Source of the DNA: Candidatus Bathyarchaeota archaeon
GTDB lineage: Archaea; Thermoproteota; Bathyarchaeia; 40CM-2-53-6
Direction: 5' to 3'
Length of the DNA: 51,334 nt
Assembly: GCA_005881615.1 (NCBI GenBank)
Contig: VBBR01000034.1
Location: 1-51,334, forward strand
Shown here: positions 48,083 through 50,066 of the stretch, piece by piece
How the letters are laid out: each line of letters starts with the position of its first letter
Numbering within the stretch: position 1 is the stretch's first letter
Notes under the pieces: generated by a model
Databases searched by the model: none
What the model saw: the letters and a program-made list of their open reading frames with translations, nothing else
What the model was told of the DNA's origin: nothing
Translations under genes and position numbers: made by a program

Positions 48083-49252
48083 TCAGTTCACTCTTCCGGG
48101 AAGTCTTGATAGGGTTTCTCTCGCCGCTTCTAACCCTTCGTCAATCTTCGCCTTGAAACCCAGTTCGGATGTCGCGGATCCAATGGCGCCGACTGTCGTC
48201 ATGATGTCCGAGGATCCGACGTTACCCATTATTCCAACTCTGAACATTTTTCCCTTCGCTTTCCCGAGGCTTCCCCCGAAGTCTATTCCATACTTCGTTC
48301 TTATGAGTTCCCTCACTTTTCCCTCATCCATCCCCATAGGACTGTTAACAGCCGCAACCGTGTGCGATCGAGATTCCTTCTCCGCATACAACCCGAGACC
48401 CATAGCTTCCATTCCATTGTAGACCGCCTCCGCACATATCTTATGCCTCTCATAACGAGGTTGCAATCCCTCTTCGAGAATCATATCACAAGCCTCATTC
48501 AACGCGTAAAGTAGACTGACAGCGGGAGTAAACGGCGTGTAGCCGTCCTCGATGTATTTCTTGTACATCACAAGATCAAGGTAGTAAGACCGACTGACTT
48601 TCTTCGACTTGATCTTCGTCCAGGCCTTATCGCTGACTGAGATAAAGGCCAACCCCGGCGGAGTCATCAAACACTTCTGACTAGCGGTCACACAGATGTC
48701 GACGTTCCAATCGTCAACAGGCAGCTTATCTCCGCCAAGAATCGAGATTGCATCCACTATCAAGAGCATGTCATGGTCCGAGCAAAGCTCTCCAAGCTCC
48801 TCAAGAGCCCTGACAGTAACACCAGTAGATGTCTCGTTGTAAACAACTGCCAGCGCCTTGGCGTCAGGGTTTGCTTTGACAATTTTCTCGAAATCTTCAA
48901 CCCGAGGGGCCTTACTCCATTCGGAGCTCAAGACCACGGGCTTTCCCCCGTAGGCCTTGATAGCCTCGCCTAGGCGTTCGCTGAAGAACCCGTTCACGTT
49001 AACGATAATCTTGTCTCCATCATCGGTTATGTTCTGTAGAGCAGCCTCGGTGGCTCCGGTACCTGAGGACGTGAGAATGAATATGTCCCCTTTGGTCTCG
49101 AAGACTTTCCTGGTCTTGCCGAGAAGTTTGTTGAAAAGTTCCTTGAATTCTGGACCCCTATGTCCGATAAGGGGCTTCAACATTGCCCTCATCACTCGAG
49201 GCGGAACGTTGGTGGGACCGGGCAACATCAGAAGTTTCTGAGTCTCACTCAC
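48083..49252 (-). CDS. Class V aminotransferase (alanine-glyoxylate/serine-pyruvate type)
   Basis: MLPGPTNVPPRVMRAMLKPLIGHRGPEFKEL; LTSSGTGATEAAL; VDAISILGGDKLPVDDWNVDICVTASQKCLMTPPGLAFISVS. Confidence 0.94.
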   Translation of the reverse strand: MSETQKLLMLPGPTNVPPRVMRAMLKPLIGHRGPEFKELFNKLLGKTRKVFETKGDIFILTSSGTGATEAALQNITDDGDKIIVNVNGFFSERLGEAIKAYGGKPVVLSSEWSKAPRVEDFEKIVKANPDAKALAVVYNETSTGVTVRALEELGELCSDHDMLLIVDAISILGGDKLPVDDWNVDICVTASQKCLMTPPGLAFISVSDKAWTKIKSKKVSRSYYLDLVMYKKYIEDGYTPFTPAVSLLYALNEACDMILEEGLQPRYERHKICAEAVYNGMEAMGLGLYAEKESRSHTVAAVNSPMGMDEGKVRELIRTKYGIDFGGSLGKAKGKMFRVGIMGNVGSSDIMTTVGAIGSATSELGFKAKIDEGLEAARETLSRLPGRVN

Positions 49253-49400
49253 AAAGTAACCCTGCTGGTAATAATTCGCGAAGCGAAGCCGTGATTCTTT
49301 TAAGTCTTAGTCTTTTAGGCTCTGTTAACTTCTAGGACATCTCGCCATTTCTTCTCGCTGTCAGCGATCGAGAAATACCGATTCCAAAAGGGAGGAGGTG

Positions 49401-49420
49401 GGTGAGGTTTCTCTCACCCA
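49401..49420 (-). terminator. Terminator-like hairpin after the 24-aa ORF
   Basis: Sense GGGTGAG-agaaac-CTCACCC, then ACCTCCTCCCTTTT. Confidence 0.5.
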
Positions 49421-49429
49421 ATCAGGTTT

Positions 49430-49504
49430 TACTTCGGATTATTCCCCCGACCTTTTCCTGAGCGCTTGCCAGTTGTACTGGGATAGTTGGGGTTCTTCCC
49501 CATT
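49430..49504 (-). CDS. 24-aa microprotein MGKNPNYPSTTGKRSGKGRGNNPK
   Basis: Strong SD AAAGGAGGTG ending 7 nt before ATG; stop TAA at 49430-49432; too short for the ORF track. Confidence 0.6.
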
Positions 49505-49625
49505 CCGGTTCACCTCCTTTGTGGGATTCGACAGCTGCCTGCGATCTCACAGTGTAATTATTACCAAAATATTACCCAACTCTAGTTCTCTCTTTCAACT
49601 AGCGAGTTGTGGGCTGAGCATTCTC

Positions 49626-50066
49626 TTACTTCTGGCGCGCCGCGGCGGCTTTGGCGGCGAGAGCTGCGAACTCTTCGCGGCCGAATGCTGTGCCCGAAAG
49701 CCCCCAACCACCTTCAGCGGCCTCAGTGAGTAGCACCCAAGTCCGACTAGCTTCGCTTGGGTCACCCGAGATCTTGGTGACGATCTCAGTGATCTCCTTG
49801 ACCAGTTGTTTCTGGCCTTCGCGGGTCAACGCCGCTGGGGGTGTGATGACTTGGACGCGTACGGTACGAGCAGAGGGGGTGGCGGCGGTGTGAACCGTCT
49901 TCGGGTCCATTCGGTGGATGTATGCGGCGGTGTTGTTCAGGTGGAAGGGACCAGGGGTTTTCACGCCTTCGGCGCGGAGAACGGCCATTGTTAGCTCGTG
50001 GCCAAGCTGAGCATCAGTTCCTGTTGGAAAGAGGTCTGCTGGTGCGTAGACATCGATCATGGGCAT
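49626..50066 (-). CDS. Tautomerase-superfamily protein
   Basis: MPMIDVYAPADLFP... PPAALTREGQKQLVKEITEIVTKISGDPSEASRTWVLLTEAAEGGWGLSG. Confidence 0.75.
   Translation of the reverse strand: MPMIDVYAPADLFPTGTDAQLGHELTMAVLRAEGVKTPGPFHLNNTAAYIHRMDPKTVHTAATPSARTVRVQVITPPAALTREGQKQLVKEITEIVTKISGDPSEASRTWVLLTEAAEGGWGLSGTAFGREEFAALAAKAAAARQK

Follow-up and report, generated by a model that had tools for sequence, protein, structure and literature searches.

The small accessory proteins found in defence islands, like the morons of prophages, usually differ between elements, and defence and accessory genes generally share islands. The microprotein described here resembles both in being apparently mobile, patchily distributed and carried by prophages and small plasmids, as well as in lying beside restriction-modification (RM), viperin, TIR, Abi and SIR2 genes, but it differs from them in having one nearly invariant core across bacteria and archaea. 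A second likeness, which we take to be one to AT-hooks and the C-terminal part of H-NS, lies in an SGxGR-type Gly/Arg core beside basic tails; however, the second basic residue of such a hook is variable in the microprotein, and an identity of this type was rejected. Self-regulated mRNAs, in which the Shine-Dalgarno (SD) sequence pairs with an anti-SD, offer a third comparison, as the SD of the gene studied here can pair with its own 3′ end, but the pairing is not conserved in the paralogue from the same genome and this mode of regulation was likewise discarded.

The gene lies in a contig of a Candidatus Bathyarchaeota archaeon (GCA_005881615.1, VBBR01000034.1; 51,334 nucleotides, hereafter the window). 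Between positions 49,520 and 49,386, the minus strand carries in order AAAGGAGGTGA, a short spacer, the ATG-initiated frame of 24 codons, TAA, a hairpin, and a C-rich tract ending in T (Table 1). Read on this strand, ACAAAGGAGGTGAACCGGA-ATG leads into the ORF, which has a ribosome-binding site and contains, within a short frame, the family core PSxTGxxSGxGRxN; the 24-codon ORF is a real and clearly protein-coding gene. The preliminary description had proposed a 24-residue microprotein gene with a strong SD, and this stands, since both ORF and SD are read in the sequence and the peptide is conserved in two domains of life.

Table 1. Positions of the microprotein gene and associated features in the window
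Feature	Position	Strand	Basis
Microprotein gene, 24 codons + TAA, encodes MGKNPNYPSTTGKRSGKGRGNNPK	49503-49429	minus	
Shine-Dalgarno AAAGGAGGTGA	49510..49520	minus	seen in sequence
Conserved core NPNYPSTTGKRSGKGRGN (residues 4-21)	49441..49494	minus	46-row alignment
Hairpin GGGTGAG/CTCACCC, probable terminator stem	49400..49419	minus	pattern search of own genome and inspection of archaeal relatives
C-rich tract with SD-complementary CACCTCC (49394-49400) and TTTT (49386-49389)	49386..49400	minus	sequence
Variable intergenic spot flanked by the tautomerase and class-V aminotransferase genes, containing the microprotein gene	49313..49628	minus	comparison with congeners

The neighbours of the window copy are ordinary genes (an aminotransferase, a tautomerase and an HxlR regulator), and no defence gene was recognised near it. 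The aminotransferase is present in 16 of the 17 other genomes of the genus and is 92–96% identical in the eight full-length cases; the conserved DNA ends at its promoter, beyond which the sequence varies among the congeners examined. When positions 49,252–49,628 were set against the corresponding congener loci (L298–L305), the spot 5′ of the class-V aminotransferase gene differed. The microprotein gene, which occupies a variable spot, looks mobile. A profile search of the class detected the microprotein in none of the 17 congener genomes at E ≤ 0.01, and gave strong matches in 5 of 257 genomes, its own genome among them. Searching 101 related genomes recovered a second, diverged copy in the same genome (MGKGKGKAGYPSKTGNPSGKGRDNTPKK, contig C76, with its own SD GAGGAGGTGAG) and, from a different family of this class, a match with 80% identity. 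The SD of other archaeal members reads AGAGGTGA or AAGGTG.

Across GTDB species genomes, 79 loci were found, with carriers in Vibrio, Shewanella, Flavobacterium, Helicobacter, Campylobacter, Halomonas and Thauera as well as in Chloroflexi, planctomycetes, Poribacteria, Myxococcota and Thermoplasmata. Separate scans of viral contigs yielded 18 loci, several of them apparently in prophages of isolate genomes, and dozens of plasmid records contain the microprotein, including plasmids of 2.4–5.7 kb. Neither isolate phages (tblastn) nor Escherichia coli chromosomes and plasmids (searched with a Cronobacter member) gave any match. The gene is patchy, being present in 2–14% of genomes depending on the group (e.g., 27 of 198 in a Vibrio family, 15 of 198 in the class of a Flavobacterium genome, and 7 of 243 in the phylum of a Thermoplasmata genome). 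This scattered occurrence in bacteria and archaea implies that the gene spread horizontally. Most members are free-standing ORFs of 24–50 residues, mostly with an SD outside Bacteroidota. Two copies lie close together in a Myxococcota contig (L111:2820-3070) and in a Bacteroidales contig (L068:1-1560), and 26–30 Acinetobacter plasmids carry a recurring member (hits H1, H6–H20, H48–H68) that is mostly unannotated in PLSDB.

The family core is P-S-[T/K]-T-G-x-x-S-G-x-G-R-[G/D]-N, with eight residues invariant among 46 aligned members (P8, S9, T11, G12, S15, G16, R19 and N21), and it is flanked by variable tails rich in Lys, Gly, Ser and Pro. In 120 distinct 19-codon core DNAs, gathered by a regular expression that fixes the eight invariant columns, mean column entropies were 0.50, 0.54 and 1.75 bits at codon positions 1, 2 and 3, i.e., third positions are near-saturated and the first two are not. 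Columns left free by the expression are equally constrained (N in 105/120, G in 111/120 and 109/120, P in 103/120 and 104/120). Moreover, the window copy and its paralogue differ at 14 of the 19 third positions within the core. Taken together, the entropies and the third-position differences indicate that the peptide is what is conserved. The peptide had initially been said to look selected, being rich in Gly, Asn, Pro and Lys, and a homologue search had been suggested as a check; the codon-level constraint over the 120 cores bears out the former, and the latter returned strong conservation across bacteria and archaea. AlphaFold, run with 42 sequences, reached a pLDDT of 59.5 and a pTM of 0.14, so the microprotein alone has no predicted fold.

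None of the 46 members had a significant match in Pfam-A, NCBIfam 20.0 or PHROGs v4, and the PDB gave no meaningful match for the family. The family motifs occur in none of 5.4 million openly available papers, and individual members are either unannotated or listed only as 'hypothetical protein'. On these comparisons, it is nearly certain that the microproteins form a widespread, undescribed family, which is new in the sense that the searches turned up no relative whose function is known. A peptide of 24–50 residues that keeps eight invariants from archaea to many bacterial phyla, and is carried on small plasmids and prophages, must have a specific task, and its core is short enough to be synthesized, which makes its function directly testable. 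Genomes often leave the gene unannotated, and a family model does not exist.

Defence genes recur in the neighbourhoods of the family. In Vibrionaceae, Shewanella and Pseudoalteromonas, the microprotein is the middle gene of a three-gene module, between an HTH-like gene and a convergent zinc-ribbon membrane gene, which is found mostly within hsd type I RM loci, in one case (Pseudoalteromonas) beside McrBC, and sometimes without either. At L041:2361-3513 and about 30 similar loci, the two larger products measure 121 aa (HTH-like) and 132 aa (zinc-ribbon membrane protein); neither was matched by PADLOC. Viperins adjoin the microprotein in Flavobacterium and Helicobacter, as well as in another Bacteroidia genome, this one sampled regardless of context, and the V. 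cortegadensis copy and a ThsB-type TIR gene converge. The paralogue of the window gene is flanked by the genes of an N6/N4 DNA methylase and HEPN_AbiV (L204:6583-9141), and other copies adjoin an Argonaute-type gene, SIR2, PDC-S02 or a ScoMcrA/TagI-like nuclease. When 15 microprotein loci were compared with control regions by PADLOC, the controls yielded only TnpB/Cas12f-like and Csx1-like matches; this comparison is biased, as several contexts were already known when the loci were chosen. A general linkage to type I RM was rejected: it holds in Vibrionaceae/Shewanella and a few others, and no HsdM-type methylase was found within 10 kb of the microprotein in 29 further genomes picked regardless of context. 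Many loci have no recognised defence gene nearby. The neighbourhoods thus suggest a linkage to defence genes that is recurrent, not obligatory.

The best explanation of these data, to which we give slightly less than even credence, is that the microprotein is a mobile, disordered, basic accessory factor that would act through its invariant core in phage defence or in conflicts between mobile elements. The window gene would be expressed from a short transcript ending at the GGGTGAG hairpin, and the core P-S-x-T-G-x-x-S-G-x-G-R-x-N would bind, or be bound by, a partner found in bacteria and archaea alike, for which a nucleic acid or a conserved protein is the candidate, while the basic tails could add affinity for nucleic acids. 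The tie to defence, taken by itself, is a tentative proposal drawn from gene neighbourhoods, and any specific binding mode is at best unlikely. The boldest version, in which the 18-residue core, free or fused, is a trans-domain mobile immunity factor that binds such a partner and modulates viral infection or an adjacent defence system, we consider rather doubtful.

Among the alternatives, one that we also hold to be doubtful sees the microprotein as a small nucleic-acid-binding protein of mobile elements (nucleoid-like or RNA-binding) that is unrelated to defence as such. The Lys/Arg-rich tails, the Gly/Ser/Asn/Arg core, the lack of a predicted fold and the members on plasmids and prophages would all suit such a protein, but SGxGR can have K, G, P, S or others between its two glycines, and therefore the two-arginine minor-groove hook of the AT-hook/H-NS type is not conserved.

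An antitoxin-like or regulatory peptide that neutralises or triggers a linked effector is less probable still. It could account for the middle position of the microprotein in the Vibrionaceae/Shewanella module, the convergent TIR gene of V. cortegadensis, a conserved gene upstream in four Bacteroidia genomes and RelE-type genes nearby on Acinetobacter plasmids, whereas the partners are unrelated between lineages although the core is nearly invariant, and many copies, including that of the window, have no such partner. A constant adjacent toxin gene, as in type II systems, was not found among the neighbours, which differ from one another. The Bacteroidia gene encodes an uncharacterised protein of 95–115 aa directly upstream of the microprotein (L315, L318, L320 and L322); its identification as DUF4258 was dropped because the model gave no match there, which also counts against the antitoxin reading. 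The RelE-type toxin-antitoxin genes were seen on the two Acinetobacter plasmids examined.

Fusions bear on the possibility that the core is a portable terminal tag, i.e., a short linear motif, alone or on the N or C terminus of unrelated proteins, read by a common recogniser, for instance a protease or modifying enzyme, or else an export system. The core is N-terminal in a 202-aa Xanthomonas plasmid protein and in a 179-aa frame of a viral contig, and C-terminal in plasmid proteins of 94–101 aa from Cedecea, Salmonella and Citrobacter as well as in a 206-aa Halomonas protein. The position of the core at either end of the Xanthomonas, enterobacterial and Halomonas proteins speaks for such a tag; against it, most members are stand-alone genes and a common processing gene is not linked, and we regard it as improbable. 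The fusions suit a portable peptide that a partner would recognise. The enterobacterial proteins (L290, L291, L295 and L136) consist of a short N-terminal domain and the C-terminal core, and one of them is encoded by a plasmid of 2.4 kb on which two genes are annotated.

The preliminary description had also seen a possible RNA device at the locus, in which the SD is sequestered by the 3′ end. Both sequences are present, GGAGGTG at 49,517–49,511 and its complement CACCTCC at 49,400–49,394, each one base away from the positions first given. The 135-nt element folds at −47.9 kcal/mol (z = −2.70 vs. shuffles) and is therefore more structured than its own shuffles. Opening the window SD costs 7.5 kcal/mol, a value reached by 12 of 200 tail shuffles, which makes its sequestration by the 3′ end marginal. 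In the paralogue, where the SD/anti-SD helix was looked for by the same measure and was absent, the opening energy is 1.7 kcal/mol, reached by 180 of 200 shuffles. Rfam covariance models matched no family across the window, and a tRNA search found none.

The terminator-like hairpin (GGGTGAG-AGAAAC-CTCACCC, 49,419–49,400, followed by CACCTCC and TTTT) was confirmed in the sequence. In the 2.2 Mb genome, GGGTGAG N3-9 CTCACCC has just two occurrences, both immediately 3′ of a microprotein gene copy, and the GGGTGAG hairpin was not seen in the other archaeal relatives inspected. Since within the genome it stands only behind these two genes, it has either co-travelled with the gene or been kept with it. 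That the locus is a self-sequestering micro-mRNA or a structured regulatory RNA, its peptide incidental, is very improbable: the fold and the confinement of the hairpin to the 3′ side of both copies would favour it, but the SD pairing is missing from the paralogue, the hairpin from the other archaeal relatives and a match from Rfam, and constraint acts on codons, at the amino-acid level, with synonymous change saturated. Riboregulation is thus not supported, and the simplest reading of the hairpin is a terminator. The two loci of the genome are alike over ~99 nt, much of the gene and the hairpin included (blastn), and two other archaeal relatives have T-rich 3′ ends.
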